Assembly: GCA_026393865.1 (NCBI GenBank)
Contig: JAPKZI010000204.1
Coordinates: 1 to 40,184 of the forward strand
Length of the DNA: 40,184 nucleotides
Direction of reading: 5' to 3'
DNA from: Candidatus Aminicenantota bacterium
GTDB taxonomy: Bacteria; Acidobacteriota; Aminicenantia; Aminicenantales; UBA4085
This document shows positions 916 to 29,080 of this stretch, piece after piece. Under the pieces are notes generated by a model. That model worked only from the letters and a program-made list of their open reading frames with translations. It was not told the origin of the DNA and did not search any database. The translations under genes and the position numbers were made by a program. How positions within the stretch are numbered: position 1 is the first letter of the stretch; each line of letters starts with the position of its first letter.

Positions 916-1370
916 GATTCCCAGAGGCTGCTTCTGCGTTTTTCCAGGATTTCTTTCTTCAGAGTCTCTATTTGTTCTTTGGTCTCCTCATCCGAAGGAG
1001 TCTGTAATTCTAGTGCTGAGCTGGCCTTGTTCAAACCGACGATTTGTTCTGCTTTTTGAGTAGCTTTCGCATCAAGAAACTCCAGTAGATTCTGACGGGG
1101 AATGATCATGATTTTCAATTCTGCGTTTAAAGCATTTGCGATTTTTTTTAGGGTGCTGATCCTCGGTATTGCGCGTCCACTCTCGATGAACTGGATATAT
1201 CTCGAGGAGAAATTGATGAGTCTCCCAAGCTGTTCCTGGCTCATACCCAGCGTTTCTCTTATCAGTTTGATTTGGTCTTTAAAATCGGGATAAGTAGCCA
1301 ACCATTCAGGAATCTTCTTTACTGAACCTAGTTTTTTACTGATCTGATCTATAAAAAAGTGTTTTTTCAT
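912..1370 (-). CDS. XRE/HTH regulator, mobile mystery protein A family
   Basis: HTH segment IRETLGMSQEQLGRLINFSSRYIQFIESGRAIPRISTLKKIANAL; located directly 5' of the Fic gene. Confidence 0.87.
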   Translation of the reverse strand: MKKHFFIDQISKKLGSVKKIPEWLATYPDFKDQIKLIRETLGMSQEQLGRLINFSSRYIQFIESGRAIPRISTLKKIANALNAELKIMIIPRQNLLEFLDAKATQKAEQIVGLNKASSALELQTPSDEETKEQIETLKKEILEKRRSSLWES

Positions 1371-1378
1371 AACCTAAG

Positions 1379-1510
1379 TATACAAACTATTGTATTGTGT
1401 TTCAAGTGTATTATACGAACTGCTATTTCGTGATATGAGTAATGTATACGAAGTGGTGTTTCGTGTTGTGGGCAATGTATACGAAGTGGTACTTCGTGTT
1501 GGCGACTAAT
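1379..1510. repeat. Four tandem 33-bp repeats (TATACGAANTGGTNTTTCGT...), putative operator array
   Basis: TATAC begins at 1379, 1412, 1445 and 1478 (exact 33-bp period); each unit holds an ACGAA...TTCGT-type inverted repeat; array starts 9 bp upstream of the XRE start codon. Confidence 0.85.
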
Positions 1511-2067
1511 TCTAAGTAATGAAAACTGCTCATTTCTGAATAGAAGTGGGTGAAGAAGAGTTGAAATTCCTATTTCCGGCAATCTCATCTTCATCAAAGT
1601 GGATAAGTTGGGGGCTGCTCGAAGAATTCCCGTGACGGCTACGATCAGGCGAAGCTTAGGGCGAAATAAGCCGCGTACTCTCGACTTAACTTCCCATTTA
1701 GGGATGAAAAAGGACAATTTTCTGCCTTCCTGGGATGCTACTTGGCCAATAAAGGCATAATAAAGATGCAAAAAGACCCCGGAAGGAGCTTTTAGGACGG
1801 CCAATTTGCCGAGCTTTTTTGAGTATTCCAGATAAGCCAGGTCATCAGAATGCCCAAAAACTAAAATTTAGGTATGTTTGGGGGCAGATGGGGATTTTCC
1901 TATTAAGCGTTCGATTCTTTTTTGCCTTATTAAATCGGCCAGTTCAGGCTAAAATAGCGAACCCCCCCATGTTGCTGGTCATAGTTGTCGGTTCTCGGCT
2001 AAAAGGAACTAATTTAGAGGATAGGCTAGACCGGTTTATTAGAACGCGAAATTACGACTTACTCAAA

Positions 2068-4302
2068 TCATGATACTTTGTCTACAATCCAAATATGAAT
2101 CTGCAAGCCAATCTCAAACTTCATATTGTCCACGTAACTGCGGATGTCAGTCTCCGGGTTATTAGGAAAGCGCCGTTCGAGTTTTCCCTCATTTAAGGCG
2201 ATGGAGGCCATAACTTGGAGACATTCATTTAATATGAGATCGGCAAGGCGAACTTGACAATGGGCATTCTCTGTCAGAGTTTTATATGGTTCAGTGCCGA
2301 AGTAACGCTGATTTACAGGATCCTTTGTATTGATTAGAATAACGCCTTCCGTATCATACCAAGATTGCACCTTAAGCTCGAGGGGTCTAAACTCATAATT
2401 CTTGAAAAGGCCCTGCATTCCCTGTAGCTGTTTTTCTTTCTTTACGACGGACACGCTAGTGCCAGCCACGTACTGTTGATGGCTTGCATTGACCAAAGTC
2501 CCCTTCGTTAACTCTGTGCCAATTACGGGAATATCAATTTGTGCCACTTGCGGTGTTATTAATTGAGATGTTTGTACCATTACTTTGTGATCGTCAATAT
2601 GGATAGCTGGTGAATCAGCAATTACCTTAATCTCTGATCCAACCAGGACTTTTTCTACGTCCACGTAGAGACGGAGATTCCGTTTAGAATGGATCTTCGT
2701 CACGTATTCATCGCGTTCAAATTCAAGCCCATTTACTGGAGTAATTATTTCTCGTGCTGTTGTAGTTACCTCTAGCTCTACCTTTTTTTCCTTCCAAGTA
2801 GCTAAGATTTTTCCGTGGATGTCAGCAATATCCGATTTAACTCGAAGTATTTTTATATGCAAACCGCTTGACCGATCCTCTTTTTCGATATTGATGACTC
2901 GCGGAGTTACAGTGATTTCAGGACAATCGCTTTCGACTAATATGAGATCATTAGGGTGAACCAAGATTGTATTGATCAATAAAGCAGTGGGAGTAGATAC
3001 TCCCGTTTGAATTGATATATGGGATGTTACAAAAGCGATACCTTCTGGAGGGGGCGTTTTCAGATGCCCTGGAATAACGGGCGCCTTTCCGGAAATTCCT
3101 AATAGCTCGTCTGCAATCTTATTCAATATTTCTAACGCCTTCTGATGTCTCTCTTTAGTCTGTTCTGAAAGTTTGGATTTTGGCTCTGGATAATCCCTCA
3201 GTATTTTCACAATCGGCTCTAGATGAGCGTGTATTTGGGTGCGTAGTAATCGGAAAAAGGGGTGATTTTTGTCGAAACCATCCCTGGTTTCCGTGAGGAT
3301 TTCTTCGGGATCTGCTTGATTCAGTTTGGATCTGATATACGCACCGGCTCCAATCAGATTGAGAGTTCCGGAAATACGACGTGCGGCAGGATCCTGGTCA
3401 AAATCAAAAAGGCATAAATCCAGGACGGCATTATCTTCGTCGAGTACAAGCAAGCCGCCCTGACGTTCAACATAACCGACTTCTCCTTGAGTCAGTTCTT
3501 TTTCAGCCAAACCGATTTCACCCTTTATGCGAATGGGATTACCTGCGTCTATCTGTAGATCGTCTTCAAATCGGTCTTTGATATCAATCTCTGGAAATCG
3601 ATAATTCAACTGCTGATCAAAAGCGAGTTGCCCACGACTATCCAATACTTTTAGAACCACTTCTCTATGGGGATCGCTGTTGATCATTCTTAGCATGTAG
3701 AAGTTATTCAAATGTTCAATTAATTTATCTGTTTGAGGATTATGTACTCCTTCGGCTAGTTGAAACTCCACTCGAGTTCCATTTCCTGGGATGCCTAAGG
3801 CAGTTCGGAGCTCAGGGGTCACGCGACAGGGAGCCTTAATATTCACAAATGGCTTTTGATTCCCGCTGACCTCTTTCCAACGAAATTGGCAGTTATAAAA
3901 CAACCCGTTCTTAATGGATTTTACCTGGCCAACACGTTGAGTAAAGAGAACGTCGCGCAATCCTTTGCCAAAAAGACTCCTGGTCCTATAACCTCGCGCA
4001 CGGTCAACTGATTCCTGGCCATACATGACAAAGCGGTCTTCCATTTCCTTGTCTGTAAGGCCTTCTGCATGATCAATCACGCTAAAATGCTTTTTATTCC
4101 TAGTAAAAACGATTGTGATAGGCGCCGGATCTTCAATTTCTGGTTCTCTCCCTACTTGAAAAGCAGCGTCCGCAATTCTCCTGTAGCTATCGTCTGCGTT
4201 TGTTATCAATTCAGTTAGAATTTTTGGGATACTTTTGCCAACCGCTCGCGTAAATATTCGCCTCAGATGCCGTTCCGCAAGTTCAAGTTGGTACTCAGGC
4301 AT
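2068..4302 (-). CDS. GHKL (MORC/MutL/Hsp90-like) ATPase, 744 aa
   Basis: N-box ELITNADDS, G1-like DHAEGL, G2-like SLFGKGLRDVLF; strong SD AAGGAGG; long beta-rich C-terminal region. Confidence 0.8.
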   Translation of the reverse strand: MPEYQLELAERHLRRIFTRAVGKSIPKILTELITNADDSYRRIADAAFQVGREPEIEDPAPITIVFTRNKKHFSVIDHAEGLTDKEMEDRFVMYGQESVDRARGYRTRSLFGKGLRDVLFTQRVGQVKSIKNGLFYNCQFRWKEVSGNQKPFVNIKAPCRVTPELRTALGIPGNGTRVEFQLAEGVHNPQTDKLIEHLNNFYMLRMINSDPHREVVLKVLDSRGQLAFDQQLNYRFPEIDIKDRFEDDLQIDAGNPIRIKGEIGLAEKELTQGEVGYVERQGGLLVLDEDNAVLDLCLFDFDQDPAARRISGTLNLIGAGAYIRSKLNQADPEEILTETRDGFDKNHPFFRLLRTQIHAHLEPIVKILRDYPEPKSKLSEQTKERHQKALEILNKIADELLGISGKAPVIPGHLKTPPPEGIAFVTSHISIQTGVSTPTALLINTILVHPNDLILVESDCPEITVTPRVINIEKEDRSSGLHIKILRVKSDIADIHGKILATWKEKKVELEVTTTAREIITPVNGLEFERDEYVTKIHSKRNLRLYVDVEKVLVGSEIKVIADSPAIHIDDHKVMVQTSQLITPQVAQIDIPVIGTELTKGTLVNASHQQYVAGTSVSVVKKEKQLQGMQGLFKNYEFRPLELKVQSWYDTEGVILINTKDPVNQRYFGTEPYKTLTENAHCQVRLADLILNECLQVMASIALNEGKLERRFPNNPETDIRSYVDNMKFEIGLQIHIWIVDKVS

Positions 4303-19587: not shown

Positions 19588-20301
19588 ATGAAGGTCCGGA
19601 CCCTCTTTCTTTTTCTTTTTTATATCGTGCTCGTCATCTGCCTCACTCCCATTCTCTTGTTCTGCATCCTCTTCGGGATCCGCGAGCCCTTCTATGACCT
19701 TGGCAAAGCGGCCATGCGGCTGTCGAGGTGGATCTTGGGACTTCGGCTCGAGGTGACGGGATTGGAACATGTGGACCGGGCCAAGACCTATGTCTTTATG
19801 GGCAACCACACCAGCTTCATCGACGGGCCTCTGCTGTTCATGCTCATCCCCCAGCACGTTCGGGTCATCCTTAAAAAAAGCATCTTCAGGCTGCCCGTTC
19901 TAGGTTTCGGCATGAAATATGTCGGATTCATCCCCGTCGACCGGAAGCGCGCCCAGCGGGGAAAAGAAGCGATCGAGCGCGCCGCCCGCCAAATGAGGGA
20001 GCGAAAGTATTCGTTCCTTATCTTCCCGGAAGGGACGCGGAGCCGCGATGGGAACTTAGCGGTCTTCCGTCGCGGCGGATTCTTCCTGGCCGTGGAAAGC
20101 GGAGCGCCGATCGTTCCCGTTTCGATCCGGGGTACGTTCGAGATCATGCCCAAAGGCCGTTTTTTCGTTAAGAAAGGGGACATCCGGGTGAGCTTCAGGC
20201 CGGCCATCCCGGTTCAGAACACCGGTGCGCAGGACCTGACCGATCTCATGGACAAGGTCCGGACGTCCATTCAAGACGGCCTCGGGGAGGAGAGAACATG
20301 A
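19588..20301 (+). CDS. 1-acyl-sn-glycerol-3-phosphate acyltransferase (PlsC family)
   Basis: NHTSFIDGPLL (NHxxxxD) and FPEGTRSRDG motifs. Confidence 0.93.
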   Translation: MKVRTLFLFLFYIVLVICLTPILLFCILFGIREPFYDLGKAAMRLSRWILGLRLEVTGLEHVDRAKTYVFMGNHTSFIDGPLLFMLIPQHVRVILKKSIFRLPVLGFGMKYVGFIPVDRKRAQRGKEAIERAARQMRERKYSFLIFPEGTRSRDGNLAVFRRGGFFLAVESGAPIVPVSIRGTFEIMPKGRFFVKKGDIRVSFRPAIPVQNTGAQDLTDLMDKVRTSIQDGLGEERT

Positions 20302-20858
20302 ACCAGCGAGCTTTGATCCAAGAATGCAGCCGCCTCTTGGAAATGTTTCTGATATCGCGGGCCGAAGTCCTCGAGCGGGCCGTCCGGGCCTGTGTCGAGG
20401 CCCTGCGCCGCGGAGGAAAACTCCTCCTTTTCGGCAACGGAGGCAGCGCCGCCGAGGCCCAGCATTTCGCGGCCGAGCTCGTCAATAAATTTTACGAAAA
20501 GCGGCCGCCGATCCGGGCCATCGCCCTGACGACGGATACCTCGGTCTTGACGTCGATCGGCAACGACGTGAGCTTCGAGGCGGTTTTCAGCCGTCAAATC
20601 GAGGCGCTGGCCGACGCCGGCGATGTGGCCCTGGCCCTGTCGACGAGCGGCGGATCTCCCAACGTGATCCGGGCGCTGAAAGCGGCGAGGAAGAGAAAAT
20701 TGGTAACGATCGGACTGACCGGAGAGGGCGGTGGAAAGATGGCCGGGCTTTGCGACATCCTGATCGATGTCCCTTCTTCGCGCACGCCGCGCGTCCAGGA
20801 GATCCACCTGATCGCCCTGCATGTTTTGGCTGAAGAAATTGAAAATAGGTTAGCCTAA
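20298..20858 (+). CDS. gmhA: SIS-domain phosphoheptose isomerase (GmhA-like)
   Basis: LLLFGNGGSAAEAQHFAAELVNKFYEKRPPIRAIALTTDTSVLTSIGNDVSFEAVFSRQ. Confidence 0.9.
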   Translation: MNQRALIQECSRLLEMFLISRAEVLERAVRACVEALRRGGKLLLFGNGGSAAEAQHFAAELVNKFYEKRPPIRAIALTTDTSVLTSIGNDVSFEAVFSRQIEALADAGDVALALSTSGGSPNVIRALKAARKRKLVTIGLTGEGGGKMAGLCDILIDVPSSRTPRVQEIHLIALHVLAEEIENRLA

Positions 20859-20864
20859 AATATG

Positions 20865-20879
20865 TCGTCGCGTCGACGA
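20865..20879. terminator. Small hairpin between convergent genes
   Basis: AAAATATG-TCGTCG-CGT-CGACGA-TTTTATTT; A-rich on one side and T-rich on the other, so possibly bidirectional. Confidence 0.4.
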
Positions 20880-20881
20880 TT

Positions 20882-23218
20882 TTATTTGCCGACGATCTCT
20901 TTGATCTTCTCCGCCCCGGCCGCCCCGCTGTTGAACAGGAAAAAGGCCGCGCTTCCCAGCAATTTCTGGAAGAACGATCTCTGAAGGGCTAAGCGCTCGT
21001 CCGTCGTCTGGAGCAGGTGCGGATTGAAGAATGGGGGATTTTTTCCCGGAGAGACGCTCATCCGCATCCCGGGGCTCTCGCCGGACTCCAGGATACGGAG
21101 GGCTTCATCGGGTGAAAGCTCGACGGCGGAGGGCGAGGTGGCGTCGTTTCGCAGAAGGAAGACCCAGCGGAGCGACGTCCGCCGGACGCAGGCCGCGGGG
21201 CCGCCGATCCAGTTCGGGTCGAGCAGGGCATGGGCGTCCTTGGAGGCCTTGTAGCAGAACGGCGAACCGCGGTCGAGCCGGCAGTCGTCCTGGCGGAGGC
21301 ACTCGGCGTTCTTGCAGTCGTCCTTGTGGACGACGACGTTCTCGCATTTGCTGTGATCGAAGAGCGGGGCGAGCCGGGAGTACAGCTCCGCGGTGTTGGT
21401 CGGAAGATAGACCTTGCGCTCGACGTTGTCGGCGAGGGCCGCCTTGCCCGAATAGCGGACGAAGGAGACCTCGCTCGCGTGGAACCGGAACTTCGGATCG
21501 CGGAGGAGGTCGAAGAAAAGCTCGGTTTTTTTCGTCCCGGGCGGTCCGATGAGAGCGAGCCCGTGGCCGCCCGCGTCCAGGGACATCCCGCGCAGGGAAT
21601 GGATGCCGAACAGCCTTTCGGAGACGTCGGCCACGAGGCCGAGGGCCAGGCTCCGCAGCGGACCGTAGGCGTCGACATTGACGATGACCCCGGTCTTGGT
21701 GTCCGTGTTGTAGAACGCCCGGGGTTCGCGGCCCGGGATCCCGTCGACCGCGTAGATGATGCCGTGCGGCTCGAGGTCGGACTCGAGCTGGGCGGGATAC
21801 CAGTTCTCGACCCAGAAATCGTTGAGGTGGGAAACGTTCGTCCGGAGCTGGACGATCACGCCGTTGATGTTGGCGTTCCACTCGAAATAATTCTCGGCGG
21901 AGAGATGGCCTTGAACCTCGGCCACGAGCCCGTCGCGAACCTTGTCCGGGACGGCCGCGTCCACGGGGACGGATTTATGGACGTGGGGGATGTAATTGGC
22001 CAGCGCGACGCGCTTGGCCTTCCGGGCCGGTTTGAGCTGTCCGAGAGCCCGGCCGATCCTCTCCATCCCTTTCTCCAGGTTGGTCATGGACGTCGCGTAG
22101 GAAAGGCGGATGTAGTCGTCGGCGCCGAACGCGTCGCCGGGAACGATGGCCACCTGGGCTTCCTTGAGCAGGTAATAGGCCATGCCGTAGGAATTGCGGA
22201 TGGGCGTCCCATTGAATTCCATCTCGTAGTAGGCCCGGACGTTGGGAAAAAGGTAAAAGGCGCCCTGGGACTTGAAACAGGACAGGCGGGGGATGGCCAG
22301 AAGCTTCATCAGGCAGTAATTCCGTCGCCGCTGGAATTCGGCGACCATTTTGGACAGTTCGAACTGGGGGCCGCTGAGGGCCTCAAGGGCCGCTTTCTGC
22401 GAGATCGAGGCCGGATTGGACGTGGTGTGGCTCTGGATCTTGTCCATGCCGTTGATCACGTCGGCCGGCCCGGCGGCGTAGCCGATGCGCCAGCCGGTCA
22501 TGGAGTGGGATTTCGACACGCCGTTGATGATGATCGTCTTTTTCCGGATGTCCTCCCCGAGGGAGACGAAGCTCGTGTAGGGGAAGCCGTCGAAGACGAG
22601 CTTGTTGTAGATATCGTCGGAGATGACATAGATGTCCTCGTTCCGGACGACGTCGGCGAGAGACTCGAGCTGGGCTTTCGAATACGTGGCCCCGGTCGGG
22701 TTCGAAGGCGAGTTCAGGATGAGGGCTTTCGTCGCCGGGGTGATATGGGCCTTGAGCTCGTCGGCGGTCAGGACGAACCCGTTCTCCTCCTTGGTCGGGA
22801 CGATGACGGATTTTCCCTTGGCCAGAGTCACGAGATGAGGATACGTCACCCAGAACGGGGCGGGGATGATGACCTCTTCGCCGTCGTTGACCAGGGCCTG
22901 GACGAGATGGAAGAGCGAGCTCTTGGCGCCCGTCGAGACGATGATTTCCTTGGGTGTATAGGCCAAGCCGTAATCTTCCTGGATCCGGGCGATGATGGCC
23001 TTTTTCAGCGCCGGCATGCCCCCGCTTTCGGTATACTTCGTGAAATTCTCCTGGATGGCCTTGATGCCGGCGGCCTTGACGTTCTCGGGAGTGGGGAAGT
23101 CCGGCTCGCCGAGGCTGAGGTCGACGACGTCGATGCCCTCGGCCTTCATAGCCTTGGCCTTGGCCGCGACCTTGAACGTGGGCGATTCGCCGATCTGGTT
23201 GGCTTTATCTGAGATCAT
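20882..23218 (-). CDS. Aspartate-type class I aminotransferase fused to a C-terminal HprK/PEPCK-like P-loop domain
   Basis: About residues 1-395 AspC-type (SNPTGATYSKAQLE, NGVSKSHSMTGWRIGYAAGP); C-terminal part has GPPGTKKTELFFDLL and a Cys-rich KDDCKNAECLRQDDCRLDRGSPFC segment; single uninterrupted ORF of 778 aa. Confidence 0.85.
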   Translation of the reverse strand: MISDKANQIGESPTFKVAAKAKAMKAEGIDVVDLSLGEPDFPTPENVKAAGIKAIQENFTKYTESGGMPALKKAIIARIQEDYGLAYTPKEIIVSTGAKSSLFHLVQALVNDGEEVIIPAPFWVTYPHLVTLAKGKSVIVPTKEENGFVLTADELKAHITPATKALILNSPSNPTGATYSKAQLESLADVVRNEDIYVISDDIYNKLVFDGFPYTSFVSLGEDIRKKTIIINGVSKSHSMTGWRIGYAAGPADVINGMDKIQSHTTSNPASISQKAALEALSGPQFELSKMVAEFQRRRNYCLMKLLAIPRLSCFKSQGAFYLFPNVRAYYEMEFNGTPIRNSYGMAYYLLKEAQVAIVPGDAFGADDYIRLSYATSMTNLEKGMERIGRALGQLKPARKAKRVALANYIPHVHKSVPVDAAVPDKVRDGLVAEVQGHLSAENYFEWNANINGVIVQLRTNVSHLNDFWVENWYPAQLESDLEPHGIIYAVDGIPGREPRAFYNTDTKTGVIVNVDAYGPLRSLALGLVADVSERLFGIHSLRGMSLDAGGHGLALIGPPGTKKTELFFDLLRDPKFRFHASEVSFVRYSGKAALADNVERKVYLPTNTAELYSRLAPLFDHSKCENVVVHKDDCKNAECLRQDDCRLDRGSPFCYKASKDAHALLDPNWIGGPAACVRRTSLRWVFLLRNDATSPSAVELSPDEALRILESGESPGMRMSVSPGKNPPFFNPHLLQTTDERLALQRSFFQKLLGSAAFFLFNSGAAGAEKIKEIVGK

Positions 23219-23248
23219 GGGAATCCCTTCTCCAAGCGTCCGGGCGCG

Positions 23249-24652
23249 CTATTTTCCGGCTTTTTCCTCGGGGGAGAGCTTGTCCTTCAAGAACTTCTTG
23301 AGGTCCGCTCCGGTGAGCGCCTTCACCACGTCGGGCAGCTGGGCCAGCACCTCGGCCACCTGGGCCGTGATCCGGGTCGTGCCCAGGCTCTTGTCTCCGC
23401 CGACGACCACGATCTTTTCGACCTTCGACAAAGGCTCGGAGATGGCCTTGGCCACGTCCGGGAGGACCTTCAAGTACATCTCCAGGATGGCCGCGTCGTT
23501 GAATTTCTCCCAGGCCTGGGCCTTTTTGAGCAGGGCTTCGGCCTCGGCCAGGCCTTTCCCCCGGATCTTATCGGCTTCGGCCTGACCTTCGAGCTTGAGC
23601 GCCTCGGCCTTGCCGCGGGCTTCGGCCTGGATGCGGAACTCTTCGGCCTCGGCCTCGGCCCGGATCTGATATTTGCGCGCGTCCGACGGTTTTAGGACGT
23701 TGGCGTCGAGCTCCTTCTCGCGGCGCTGGATCTCGAGATCTTCGATCTTGATGGCCTGCTCTTTCTCGACTATGCGGACCTTGGCCTCTTCCTTCTTCAG
23801 TTCCTGGCCGAGCTTGTGACGCTCGAGTTCGTAGGAAAAATCGGCCTGGGCTTTCTTGGTGTTGACCATGACCTGGGATTCGGCCTTCTTCGCCTCGTTC
23901 TCCCATTGGGCCTTGGCGATCAAGGCCTCGGCTTGGAGGCGGGCGACCTCTCCTTCCTTTCGCGCCTGAGAAGACTTGATGATCGAGTCCTTCTGGCTTT
24001 CGGCTTCGGCGATGGCCGCTTCCCTCTTGGCCGCGGAGATCAGGGGCTTGCTCAGGGCGTCGATATAGCCCTGGGTATCGCTGAACTCTTTCAGCGAGAA
24101 CGAGAGGAGGACCAATCCCATTTTGGAGAAAGCCTCATGGGCGGAATCCACGACCTTGTCGTTGAACTCATGGCGGCCCCGGTAGATCTCCTCGACCGTC
24201 ATGGTCCCGATGACCTCGCGCATCTTGCCTTCGAGGACGTTCGTCGCCACATCGCGGATGCCGTCCTTGCCGATGCCGAGAAACTGCTCGGCGGCGATGT
24301 GGATCGAGGCCTCCGAGGAGTCGACTTTGACCTGGGCTGTTGCATCGGCCAGGATGGGGACGCCGCCATGGGTTAAGACCTCCGGGGTCCGGATGCCGAT
24401 CGGGATGACGTCCATGGGCAGGACGTCGACAGTTTCCATGAAGGGCATGACGAACGTGCCGCCGCCGAGGCGGTAACGGTATCCGACCTTTCTCTTCATG
24501 CCGTCGGGTCCGGTGACCGTCCGCTTGCGCCCGGAAATGATGAGGGCTTCGTTGGGTCCGACTTTTTTATACTGCTTCGCGATGACAAGGGAGACCAGGA
24601 CCAAAAACAGGATGACGGCGCCGGCCGGGATAAGCCAGGAAATCAGACTCAT
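23249..24652 (-). CDS. Flotillin / SPFH-domain protein
   Basis: N-terminal TM; VGPNEALIISG; SPFH region; long Ala/Glu-rich coiled coil. Confidence 0.92.
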   Translation of the reverse strand: MSLISWLIPAGAVILFLVLVSLVIAKQYKKVGPNEALIISGRKRTVTGPDGMKRKVGYRYRLGGGTFVMPFMETVDVLPMDVIPIGIRTPEVLTHGGVPILADATAQVKVDSSEASIHIAAEQFLGIGKDGIRDVATNVLEGKMREVIGTMTVEEIYRGRHEFNDKVVDSAHEAFSKMGLVLLSFSLKEFSDTQGYIDALSKPLISAAKREAAIAEAESQKDSIIKSSQARKEGEVARLQAEALIAKAQWENEAKKAESQVMVNTKKAQADFSYELERHKLGQELKKEEAKVRIVEKEQAIKIEDLEIQRREKELDANVLKPSDARKYQIRAEAEAEEFRIQAEARGKAEALKLEGQAEADKIRGKGLAEAEALLKKAQAWEKFNDAAILEMYLKVLPDVAKAISEPLSKVEKIVVVGGDKSLGTTRITAQVAEVLAQLPDVVKALTGADLKKFLKDKLSPEEKAGK

Positions 24653-24754
24653 GAGGACCTCCTTGGATGATGGCTCGACGTTAGGGCTCGGAATAGCATA
24701 ACTTGTTAAAAAGAAATATATTACTGAATAGGATCGAAAAAAGTCAAGCCGCTC

Positions 24755-25456
24755 CTATTTAAAAAATTTGTAGCGGAACATGTGAAAGATGGCCGCCACG
24801 CCGTCCTTCCAGCCGATCTTCTTGCCCTCGGCGTAGTCGCGCCCCGAGTACGAGATCGGGACTTCGTAGATCCGGCACCTGAGTTCGGCCACTTTGAGGG
24901 TCACTTCGGGTTCGAATCCGAAGCGGTCGGACTTCAGTTGGATCCGCGACAACACATCCTTTTTGAACACTTTATAGCAGGTTTCCATGTCGGTCAGGTT
25001 CAGGTTGGCCAGGACATTGCAGAACGTGGTCAACATCCGGTTGGCGACATAATGCCAGAAGAAGAGCACCCGGTGGGGTCCGCTGAGGAAGCGGGAGCCG
25101 AAGACCACGTCGGCCCGGCCGTCCAGGATCGGGGCCAGAAGAACGGGGTATTCCCGGGGGTCGTATTCGAGGTCGGCGTCCTGGACGAGGACGATATCCC
25201 CCTGGGCCTGGGCGAATCCGGTCCGAAGGGCGGCGCCCTTGCCCATGTTCTTCGGCTGGAGAATGACCCGGATCCTCGGATCGCCGAGCTTATCCAGGAT
25301 CTCGCGCGTCCCGTCCTTGGAGAAGTCGTCCACGATGACCAATTCCTTTTCCAGCCCCGTCTCGACCTTGAGGACGCGGTCGACGATCTCGCGGATGGTG
25401 TCCTTTTCGTTATAGACCGGTATGACGATGGAAAGTTTCATGGGAACGCCTTTCAT
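24755..25456 (-). CDS. Family 2 glycosyltransferase (dolichol-phosphate mannosyltransferase-like)
   Basis: [34 protein letters not shown]. Confidence 0.93.
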
Positions 25457-26400
25457 ACGCGATCCCGCGCGCCGAGTGTTTCCTTAAAATATTCGATGGT
25501 CCGGGCCAGCCCCTCGTCCAGGGACACCTTGGGCTCCCAGCCGAGCTTGGCCTTGGCCATGGAGATGTCCGGCCGGCGCCGGACCGGGTCGTCGGAGGGC
25601 AGAGGCTTATGGACGAATTTCGAGCGGCTCCCGGTCATCTTGATGATCTTTTCGGCTAGTTCGATGATCGTGAATTCGCTGGGGTTCCCCAGATTGATCG
25701 GTCCGATGGTCGTCTCCTGGTCCATCATCCGGCGGATCCCCTTGATCAGGTCGGAGACGTAGCAGAACGCCCGCGTCTGGCCGCCGTCGCCGTAAATGGT
25801 GATTGGGTCGCCGCGGAGCGCCTGGACGATGAAATTGCTGACGACGCGGCCGTCGTTGACGGCCATGCGCGGCCCATAGGTGTTGAAGACGCGGACGATA
25901 CGGATATCCACCTTGTTCTGGCGGTGATAGTCCATCATCAGCGTCTCGGCCACCCGCTTGCCCTCGTCGTAACAGCTCCGCACGCCGATCGAGTTCACGT
26001 TCCCCCAATAGCTTTCGGGTTGAGGGTGGACCTGCGCGTCGCCGTAGATCTCCGACGTGGAGGTGAGAAGGATCCGGCTCCTGATCCGCTTGGCCAGGCC
26101 GAGCATGTTGATGGTGCCCATGACGTTGGTCTTGACGGTCTTGATCGGGTTCATCTGGTAGTGGATGGGGGAGGCCGGACAGGCCAGATGATAGATCCGG
26201 TCGACCTCGACGAAGAGAGGGTGGATGACGTCGTGGCGGATGAGCTCGAAATAGGGATGGGCGACGAAGGGGCGGATATTGTCCTTGTGGCCGGAGAAAA
26301 AATTGTCGATGCAGACGACGTCCGATCCCTCGCCGAGGAGCTGCTCGCAGAGATGGCTGCCCAAAAAGCCCGCGCCGCCCGTGACCAAAACCCGGTTCAT
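25453..26400 (-). CDS. NAD-dependent epimerase, UDP-glucuronate decarboxylase-like
   Basis: [53 protein letters not shown]. Confidence 0.93.
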
Positions 26401-26431
26401 CGCCGCTCCTCCTTCACTCGAGTCTCCCGCT

Positions 26432-27181
26432 CTACTTATATCCGTAGGCCATGAACATCAGGCTCTTTTTTTTCAGGACTTCCTTCTGGGCCAGAACGAT
26501 CTCCTCGATGCCCTGGTCGGCCAGCCGGAGAAGCCTTTCGAGAAGGCTTTTCGAAAAGGGTTCTCTTTCGGCCGTCGCCTGGACCTCCAAGAGCTGCCCC
26601 CGGTCGGTCTGGACGACGTTCATATCGGTTTCGGCGGAGGAATCCTCGGCGTAGTCCAGGTCGAGGAGCGGTTCGCCGTTGATGATGCCCACGCTCACCC
26701 CGGCGACGAGATGGCGGAGGGGCATGGCGTCGATGATCCGCAGATCGAGCATTTTCTTGAGGGCCAGGGCGAGGGCGATGCAGGCGGCGTTGATCGAGGC
26801 GACCCGCGTCCCGCCGTCGGCCTGGATGACGTCGCAGTCGATGATGATCTGCCGCTCGCCGATCGTCCGGAGGTCCGTGACCGCCCGGAGCGCCCGCCCG
26901 ATCAGGCGCTGGATCTCCTGGTTGCGGCCCGAGGGATAGCCCTGGTTCCGCTCGCGGTTCGTCCTCTTCTCCGTGGACCGCGGGAGCATGGAATATTCGG
27001 CCGTGACCCAGCCGGAGCCCGTGTTCTTGAGGAAGGGCGGCACCTTTTCTTCGATGGTCGCGGCGGCCACGACGCGCGTCTTCCCGCATTCGATGAGGGC
27101 CGACCCGTCGGCGAAGTCAAGGTAGTCCGGGAAAATCTTGATCGGCCTCAATTCATCGTATTTGCGATTATGGGCTCTCAT
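26432..27181 (-). CDS. rph: Ribonuclease PH
   Basis: [57 protein letters not shown]. Confidence 0.95.
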
Positions 27182-28083
27182 GGGGACGTCACCTCGTCGG
27201 CAGGTCTTGTCTGCCAGCGCTTGTGGACCCAGAACCAGAGCTCCGGGCGCTGACGGATCTCCCGCTCGATTATCTTAGTGCATAACTGGGTGATTTTCAA
27301 CACGTCCTCGTCCATGCGGCCCGCGGGAGGAACGGCGAAGGGTTCGTGGATCTTCAGGACGTACCGTCCGTGGGGGGCGGGATGGACGAAGATCGGGACC
27401 AGGGGAGCGCCCGTCTTGAGATGAAATGCGGCCAGGCCGGGCGTCGTGCCCGCCGTTTTGCCGAAGAAATCGACGAAGACGGCCTGGCTCCGCAGGACGT
27501 TCTGATCGATGAGGATGGCCACGATCTCGTTGCGCCCGAGCGCCCTCAGGATGGCCCGGGCCGCGCCGAACTTGTCGATGACCCCGGCGCCGAACTTCGT
27601 CCGCAGCCCGGAAAGGTCTTTGTCCAGGCGCGGGTTGTCCAGGGCGCGGGCGACCACCCGGAGCGTCCCGATCTCCGTCAGCGGGGCCGCGGCGAGCTCC
27701 CAGTTTCCGAAGTGGCCGGTGAACAGAAGAACCCCTTTGCCCTGGGCCAGGGCGGCCTCCATGTGGGCCCGGCCTTCGGTGGCGATGAGCCGCAGGGCCC
27801 GCTCCCGGGAATAGCGGGCGATCTTGAGAGTGTCGGCGAGAACGCCCCCGAGATTTTTAAAGGACGCCCGGGCGATCGCGGTGAGTTCGACCTCCGAGCG
27901 CTCCCGGCCGAAGGCGACGGCGAGGTTCGCCAGGGCGATCCGGCGGTGCCGGCGGTCGGCATGGAAGGCGAGGAGGCCGAGAGAGCGGCCGGCGGCCAGG
28001 CAGAGCGGGCGGGGCAGCACGGAGAAGATCAGGGTCAATCCTTTGTATGCCGCGGTCCCGGCGAAATCTCCGGACTTGCTCAT
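27178..28083 (-). CDS. Lysophospholipid / lipid A acyltransferase (LpxL/HtrB-like)
   Basis: FTGHFGNWELA and LIDQNVL motifs; located beside lpxK. Confidence 0.88.
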   Translation of the reverse strand: MSKSGDFAGTAAYKGLTLIFSVLPRPLCLAAGRSLGLLAFHADRRHRRIALANLAVAFGRERSEVELTAIARASFKNLGGVLADTLKIARYSRERALRLIATEGRAHMEAALAQGKGVLLFTGHFGNWELAAAPLTEIGTLRVVARALDNPRLDKDLSGLRTKFGAGVIDKFGAARAILRALGRNEIVAILIDQNVLRSQAVFVDFFGKTAGTTPGLAAFHLKTGAPLVPIFVHPAPHGRYVLKIHEPFAVPPAGRMDEDVLKITQLCTKIIEREIRQRPELWFWVHKRWQTRPADEVTSP

Positions 28084-29080
28084 GACGGGCGGGTCGCCTG
28101 GGAACGATTCAGATCATCGACGGGGCCGGCCGGCCCAAGAGAAGCGCTGATCTTTTCGAAAAACGCGGGCGGCAGATCGAGCCCGACATCGAGAACGTAA
28201 AGAGGTGTGGAGGCGAAGGCCCAGGTCCGGCCGAGGAGCTTGACCGCATCCTTTTCCGTCGTCAGGAGAGCCTCGATCCGGTCTCTCTCTCCGGCCGCGG
28301 CGAGCCGGTCCAAGCTTGGCGGAGGATAAAGAAAATGGTCGGGAAAGGGCATTTTCGTCTGTGGCGGAAGACCGTTTTCTACGAGGAGCGAAAAGAACCT
28401 CTCCGGCCGGGCGATCCCGCAGAAAGCCAGGATTCTCTTGCCTTTGAGAACGCCGGCCGCGATCGGTTCGCCCGTCTCGAGGAGGCGAAGCCCCCGGGGG
28501 ACCACGGCGTATTCGAAGGCGGCGGCGGAAAACCGTTGACGGATCCGCCGGAGCGCCGCCTCTCCGCCCTTCTTGACCAGGATGCACGGCGCCCGCCCTC
28601 AGCCGTCGGGTCGTAGAGGACGATGTCCACATCGCGCCCGAGCTTGAGGTGTTGGAAACCATCGTCGAGGACGGCCAGGTCGAAGCCCATTTCCTTGGCT
28701 TTGAGACAGGACCGATAGCGGTTCTTCCCGACGAAAACGCCCGCCCGGGGAATATGCCGGGCGATCATATACGGCTCGTCGCCGGCCTCTTCCCAGCCTC
28801 CGTGCAGCGCTTGGCCGTCCGACAAAACACCGCCCTCCTGCTCCCAGCGCCCCCTATACCCGCGGGTCACCAGGGCCGGCCGGCGGCCGAGCCCGAGGAA
28901 ATGGGTCAAAAGCTCCATGGCCAGGGGAGTTTTTTCCGAACCTCCCAGGGTCAGATTCCCGACGCTGATGACGGGGAGGGGGGCCTCGCGCCGCCGTCTG
29001 ATCCCAGTCTTGAAAAGGACCGTCTTAATTCGACAGACGGCGCGGGAAATCAGGGAATAAAGGCCAAGAAGAATAGCCAT
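28080..29080 (-). pseudogene. lpxK: Tetraacyldisaccharide 4'-kinase LpxK with an apparent frameshift near 28600
   Basis: N-part ISVGNLTLGGSEKTPLAMELL...AVLDDGFQHLKLGRDVDIVLYDPTAEGG in one frame; C-part CILVKKGGEAALRRIRQRFSAAAFEYAVVPRGLRLLETGEPIAAGVLKGKRILAFCGIARPERF in another; total 1001 nt. Confidence 0.8.

Follow-up and report, generated by a model that had tools for sequence, protein, structure and literature searches.

Aspartate aminotransferase interconverts aspartate plus 2-oxoglutarate and oxaloacetate plus glutamate, and the oxaloacetate that it makes or uses is connected with PEP by PEPCK. In the E. coli PEPCK, the metal is served by K213, H232, and D269, the P-loop includes K254 and T255, and R65 and R333 contact the substrate. 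To our knowledge, the class I aspartate aminotransferases described so far are single-domain proteins. Bacterial flotillins, on the other side of the system described below, are proposed scaffolds of membrane microdomains, and those of the SPFH2 group (FloT/YuaG, YqiK) usually have an NfeD-type gene as their operon partner (PMC2636767). The DNA analyzed here, referred to as the window, is a stretch of 40,184 nucleotides from a Candidatus Aminicenantota bacterium (Acidobacteriota, order Aminicenantales). One of its proteins shares with the class I aspartate aminotransferases (PF00155; 6f35, 1j32, 5wmh) a full-length domain match and the catalytic residues, and differs from them by a domain of ~380 aa fused behind the aminotransferase. 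The gene next to it resembles the SPFH2-group flotillins in its Band_7 and Flot domains, whereas its neighbor is an aminotransferase-PEPCK-like fusion in place of the NfeD-type gene that accompanies the known ones.

Table 1. Features of the fusion gene and of the adjoining flotillin gene (window positions; residues numbered along the fusion protein)
Feature	Position	Strand	Description
Flotillin (SPFH) gene	23249..24652	-	Band_7 E 1.5e-25, Flot E 8.5e-07; 30 bases upstream of the fusion
Whole fusion gene	20882..23218	-	778 aa: aspartate-aminotransferase-type domain + PEPCK-fold domain
Aminotransferase domain, residues 1-395	22034..23218	-	PF00155 E 3.5e-75; PDB relatives are aspartate aminotransferases; catalytic residues invariant
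PEPCK-fold C-terminal domain (CTD), residues 396-778	20885..22033	-	AlphaFold2 model, Foldseek, hhalign
Most conserved CTD stretch, residues 446-475, EWNA..G..vQLRTN..H..DF..EN..P	21794..21883	-	Kept across the order and distant Acidobacteriota
Altered P-loop GPPGTKKT, residues 558-565	21524..21547	-	GxxGxGRT in distant relatives
C625-E-N-V motif and Cys cluster C635, C640, C646, C655	21254..21346	-	Candidate metal site

The fusion gene runs from ATG to stop with zero internal stops when the frame is read from 23218 to 20882 (Table 1). An earlier note on this DNA, made from the letters alone, had described a single uninterrupted 778-aa ORF without naming a strand; the ORF is confirmed and lies on the minus strand, and a 660-aa plus-strand ORF that overlaps it (21230-23212) resembles the shadow ORFs common in G+C-rich genes. 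The normal-length class I aminotransferase reported at the N-terminus was likewise recovered, with a PF00155 match covering residues 30-388 and, as the closest PDB relatives, 6f35 (AatB, E 5.5e-103), 1j32, and the plant aspartate/prephenate aminotransferase 5wmh. The PLP lysine K236 (22511-22513) and residues N173, D201, Y204, R244, and R371 show no variation across 60 non-identical fusion proteins, and the NCBIfam equivalog cut-offs were not reached by this domain (439 versus 617 bits). By its sequence, the N-terminal domain is a class I aspartate-type aminotransferase, nearest to both the aspartate aminotransferases and the prephenate/aspartate enzymes. With these catalytic residues intact, the gene product is predicted to include a working aspartate aminotransferase, which forms part of our best explanation of the locus.

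The identity of the CTD was less direct to establish. Searched alone, it had no match in Pfam, NCBIfam, or the PDB sequences (PF01293, TIGR00224, and PF07475 included), and its profile matched PDB entries at chance level, except for HPr kinase 1knx, which was aligned in the right register at an E-value of 0.21. The AlphaFold2 model of the full-length fusion was unusable (pLDDT 48.8). The model of the CTD, based on a 15-sequence alignment, is of medium confidence (pLDDT 72.5), higher around the P-loop, with the first ~20 residues forming a low-confidence linker. The best 50 PDB matches of this model in Foldseek were all PEPCK, led by the Thermus ATP-PEPCK (E 1.7e-14, TM 0.68, 368 columns, 16% identity). 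Independently of the structure model, the CTD profile was aligned globally by hhalign with a profile of 31 PckA sequences; the two are collinear over 339 columns (score 39.0, E 2.7e-7), whereas 20 column-shuffled PckA profiles scored no higher than 13.9. The CTD is thus modeled with an ATP-dependent PEPCK fold, and the profile alignment backs the homology. Its likeness to ATP-PEPCK (PckA, PF01293; 1j3b, 1ayl) concerns the fold over the whole CTD, with the P-loop region, the E-N-V motif, and the C-terminal strands in register; the differences are the ~16% identity without a Pfam match, the shorter length (~365 versus ~540 residues), the altered metal ligands and P-loop, and a Cys cluster located after the E-N-V motif and ahead of the strand that follows.

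The earlier note had called this domain HprK/PEPCK-like. Its placement in the PEPCK/HprK P-loop superfamily stands, and within it ATP-PEPCK is favored by fold and full-length alignment, as HprK matches 51 residues only. Those residues surround the P-loop (E 7.9e-5 against the HprK of the window's genome), a local match that is expected within one superfamily, and neither HprK nor GTP-PEPCK gave a global hhalign match to the CTD profile. This local similarity, the in-register 1knx match, and the weak matches of a standalone relative (L049, see below) to HprK-type models are what would speak for a protein kinase/phosphatase resembling HPr kinase, with the aminotransferase, the flotillin, or another protein as its target. 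However, this is highly improbable, as the global alignment and the fold favor PEPCK, only one acidic residue is left of the kinase-2 Asp pair that HPr kinase/phosphatase (PF07475) has, the P-loop Lys is gone in distant fusions, and a canonical HprK is present elsewhere in the genome. HprK was accordingly rejected as the main identity of the CTD. The standalone relative (572-574 aa, positions 1259-2977, plus strand, of a Terriglobia contig) aligns over the whole CTD at E 2e-37 and partly contains the conserved stretch of residues 446-475. Its P-loop (APTGTGKS) looks intact, it has an HSDDW motif, and the adjoining gene matches RmlD; it is possibly a catalytically complete cousin of the CTD.

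Since draft metagenome assemblies carry a general risk of such errors, a missed stop codon or an assembly error joining two genes was considered as the origin of the fusion. The probability of this is close to nil, given that dozens of assemblies, which span many genera and more than one family, share this frame and boundary; absence from all relatives, named in the earlier note as what would refute the fusion, is excluded. Among genomes searched in the window's order, metagenome assemblies of varying completeness as are all those counted here, 34 of 39 (the window's own included) have the full-length fusion, the relatives being 63-95% identical; another genome, G002, has the aminotransferase alone, and in G027 the fusion is cut by a contig end. 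In a phylum-wide sample of Acidobacteriota searched with the CTD profile, 33 of 297 genomes contained the CTD, in frames of 769-799 aa joined to the aminotransferase wherever the contig permits, and no CTD without aminotransferase was found there apart from G279, where the contig starts inside the gene. For fusions outside the order, the identity is 43-60%. A search beyond the phylum, sensitive to close relatives only, returned Aminicenantes/Acidobacteria records and one "uncultured bacterium" record, and a plasmid collection gave no match. In pairwise comparisons, the identity of the aminotransferase domain is correlated with that of the CTD (rho 0.82), which fits one single old fusion. As judged from dN/dS values of 0.10-0.23 against three relatives, the CTD is under purifying selection. 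The fusion is real and ancient.

The catalytic residues of the CTD have been preserved less well than its fold. The position of H232 is R543 throughout the order (48/48) and His in 9 of 12 distant fusions, and that of K213 is mostly Ser in the order, with a register uncertain by one or two residues. The P-loop-like motif of the earlier note was located (Table 1), and it departs from GxSGTGKT, reading GPxGTKKT in most of the order and GxxGxGRT in most distant fusions; within the order its Lys (K564) and Thr (T565) are kept in 48/48 and 47/48 sequences, respectively, and in 11 of the 12 distant fusions the Lys is replaced by Arg. Of the kinase-2 Asp pair, one acidic residue (D/E583) is left, in all sequences. 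The candidate for the R333 equivalent, R647 in the order, is Pro in 11 of the 12 distant fusions, in a region where the alignment is uncertain. The four-Cys segment noted earlier was confirmed as C635, C640, C646, and C655, with a fifth Cys, C625, just ahead of it. Among 60 fusions, C646 and C655 are present in all, C635 in 59, and C640 in 56, at a position that corresponds to the PEPCK stretch between LENV and the substrate arginine; this cluster may bind a metal.

No clade examined keeps the complete PEPCK catalytic set and the losses differ between clades, so that catalysis by the usual PEPCK route is unlikely. Because different clades lost different residues, the CTD is probably a pseudo-PEPCK, and the kinase or PEPCK activity that had been suggested for the second domain is not supported. 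A bifunctional enzyme, in which the CTD would be an active PEPCK with changed residues and aspartate would be converted to PEP within one polypeptide, could still draw on the PEPCK fold, on the consecutive aminotransferase and PEPCK reactions, and on the retention of K564, T565, and D/E583 in the order. It is nevertheless quite improbable in view of the Arg and Ser at the H232 and K213 positions in the order, the Arg in place of the P-loop Lys in distant fusions, the ~365 residues of the CTD compared to ~540, and the separate GTP-PEPCK or PckL (a divergent PEPCK, see below) of fusion genomes, with just two exceptions in the order.

A PF01293 search identified a divergent PEPCK family, here PckL, scoring 85-98 bits (cut-off 26.5) compared to ~700 for true PckA. 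Its members have ~580-630 aa in Acidobacteriota (e.g., L135:1048-2898), remain under the NCBIfam NF006821 cut-off (285-300 versus 369), and in eight cases are 55-63% identical to the member from genome G015. In the alignment, PckL keeps the KKGF, LHxG, GLTATGKS-type, QDD, ENV, and NGR motifs; with these intact, it is likely an active PEPCK. Descent of the CTD from PckL itself was considered and rejected, the profile match being not significant. In five genomes (G015, G021, G025, G028, G102), the fusion is immediately followed by the PckL gene in the same orientation; in G054 PckL comes one gene later, in G096 it is downstream and convergent, and it is divergent beside the flotillin gene in nine (G040, G056, G070, G145, G171, G194, G215, G256, G279). 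Within the 297 genomes, PckL is present in 15 of the 15 fusion genomes outside the order versus 4 of 263 others (Fisher 1.6e-21, uncorrected for phylogeny), one of these four being G171, in which the fusion is lost to a contig end. Three genomes (G083, G108, G128) have PckL without the fusion. That related lineages have a divergent PEPCK gene next to the fusion adds evidence for the coupling of aspartate/oxaloacetate with PEP chemistry that the earlier note had suggested.

Only 2 of the 23 PckL genomes also hold a GTP-PEPCK (G015 and G279). Of 18 sampled fusion genomes of the order, 12 have GTP-PEPCK only, three PckL only, one both, and two neither; this largely exclusive distribution suggests that PckL does the PEPCK job of the cell. 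In the window's genome, no PckL was found, and a GTP-PEPCK and the canonical HprK are located on two further contigs. GTP-PEPCK thus appears to have mostly replaced PckL in this order, while the pair of flotillin and fusion persists.

Flotillin is found directly upstream of the fusion at every locus with enough upstream sequence, in and out of the order, and in the window both genes are probably on one transcript; the earlier note had not remarked on this partner gene. The window's flotillin did not reach the NCBIfam FloT cut-off (376.8 versus 700 bits), and no NfeD-type gene was matched among the neighboring genes scanned around it. With the same query that identified flotillin in 118 of the 297 phylum genomes, none was found in those genomes of the order that lack the CTD (G002, G024, G030, G035). 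At the G002 locus, the aminotransferase (85% identity) is flanked by recognizable neighbors, and the CTD, the flotillin gene, and the adjacent glycosyltransferase gene are missing; the first two were not found elsewhere in this single metagenome assembly either. In other Acidobacteriota (L122-L132), flotillins 43-49% identical to the window's occur without the fusion, several of them with a gene for a small NfeD-like membrane protein just upstream instead (in L124, NfeD by Pfam at E 2.4e-4).

The combination of a PEPCK-fold domain, a linked PckL, and a flotillin points to a module scaffolded at the membrane. In the reading we prefer, to which we give roughly four chances in ten, a working aspartate aminotransferase is fused to a pseudo-PEPCK that serves as a sensing or docking module and, at a flotillin scaffold, ties the exchange between aspartate and oxaloacetate to the formation of PEP. 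What the domains are, how the genes are ordered, and which of them co-occur was observed; from this we infer the binding, docking, and channeling that the mechanism would involve. The pseudo-PEPCK domain would retain a ligand pocket, for nucleotide and/or oxaloacetate/PEP, would carry a Cys-bound metal, and would act both as a sensor and as a docking surface that holds the aminotransferase to the membrane flotillin scaffold. Ancestrally, it may also have docked the aminotransferase to PckL as a partner, and the outcome would be a balance between aspartate-derived oxaloacetate and the formation of PEP. In the lineage to which the window belongs, the GTP-PEPCK encoded elsewhere would have taken the place of the partner PEPCK and the flotillin-fusion pair would have stayed. 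This proposal is consistent with the intact aminotransferase, the PEPCK fold, catalytic losses that differ among clades in a fold under purifying selection, the flotillin upstream, the G002 genome, which lacks CTD and flotillin yet keeps the aminotransferase, the proximity of PckL to the fusion in the majority of PckL genomes, its presence in all fusion genomes outside the order, and its largely exclusive distribution with GTP-PEPCK within the order.

Its strongest rival is that the CTD is a plain structural adaptor, a PEPCK fold reused as a scaffold for oligomerization or flotillin binding, free of ligand and unconnected to PEP chemistry. The degenerate catalytic residues would agree with this, as would the fact that, for the greater part of the order, flotillin and not PckL is the strictly linked gene, and the joint absence of CTD and flotillin in G002. 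Against it, the near-universal P-loop Lys and Thr within the order and the universal acidic kinase-2 residue suggest a kept pocket, and an inert part is hard to square with the PckL linkage outside the order; we consider the adaptor somewhat unlikely. A more specific version of the sensing and docking proposal assumes a flotillin-anchored complex in which the pseudo-PEPCK on the aminotransferase pairs with PckL and regulates it, so that aspartate carbon would pass through oxaloacetate to PEP at microdomains, with the pseudo-enzyme having outlived its partner in Aminicenantales as a lone sensor; in this detailed form it is unlikely. As most Aminicenantales, including the window's genome, have the fusion without PckL, the role of the CTD there cannot depend on PckL.

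If the sensing and docking reading is true, a conserved genetic link would tie a bacterial flotillin to a soluble central-metabolic enzyme and to a pseudo-enzyme that descends from the enzyme acting next in the pathway. This would constitute a membrane-anchored site of control where amino-acid metabolism meets sugar metabolism, of which, as of the fusion, of a flotillin with an aminotransferase, or of PEPCK in connection with Aminicenantes, no description was found in the open-access literature searched. The flotillin-fusion pair is a candidate metabolic client of bacterial flotillin. PckL, in turn, may be the sole PEPCK of several Acidobacteriota, and its scores below curated NCBIfam cut-offs affect the metabolic reconstruction of uncultured groups of this phylum.

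In the window, the flotillin-fusion pair lies amid lipopolysaccharide-type genes (19588-29080), which encode an acyltransferase, a gmhA-like isomerase, a glycosyltransferase, an epimerase, RNase PH, a lipid A acyltransferase, and LpxK, with a pilin-like gene and a type II/IV secretion ATPase farther out. The lpxK-like gene (28080-29080, minus strand) is distributed over two frames, 28379-29080 corresponding to positions 2-157 of the LpxK profile and 28080-28505 to positions 225-326, and this copy looks frameshifted, by mutation or assembly error.
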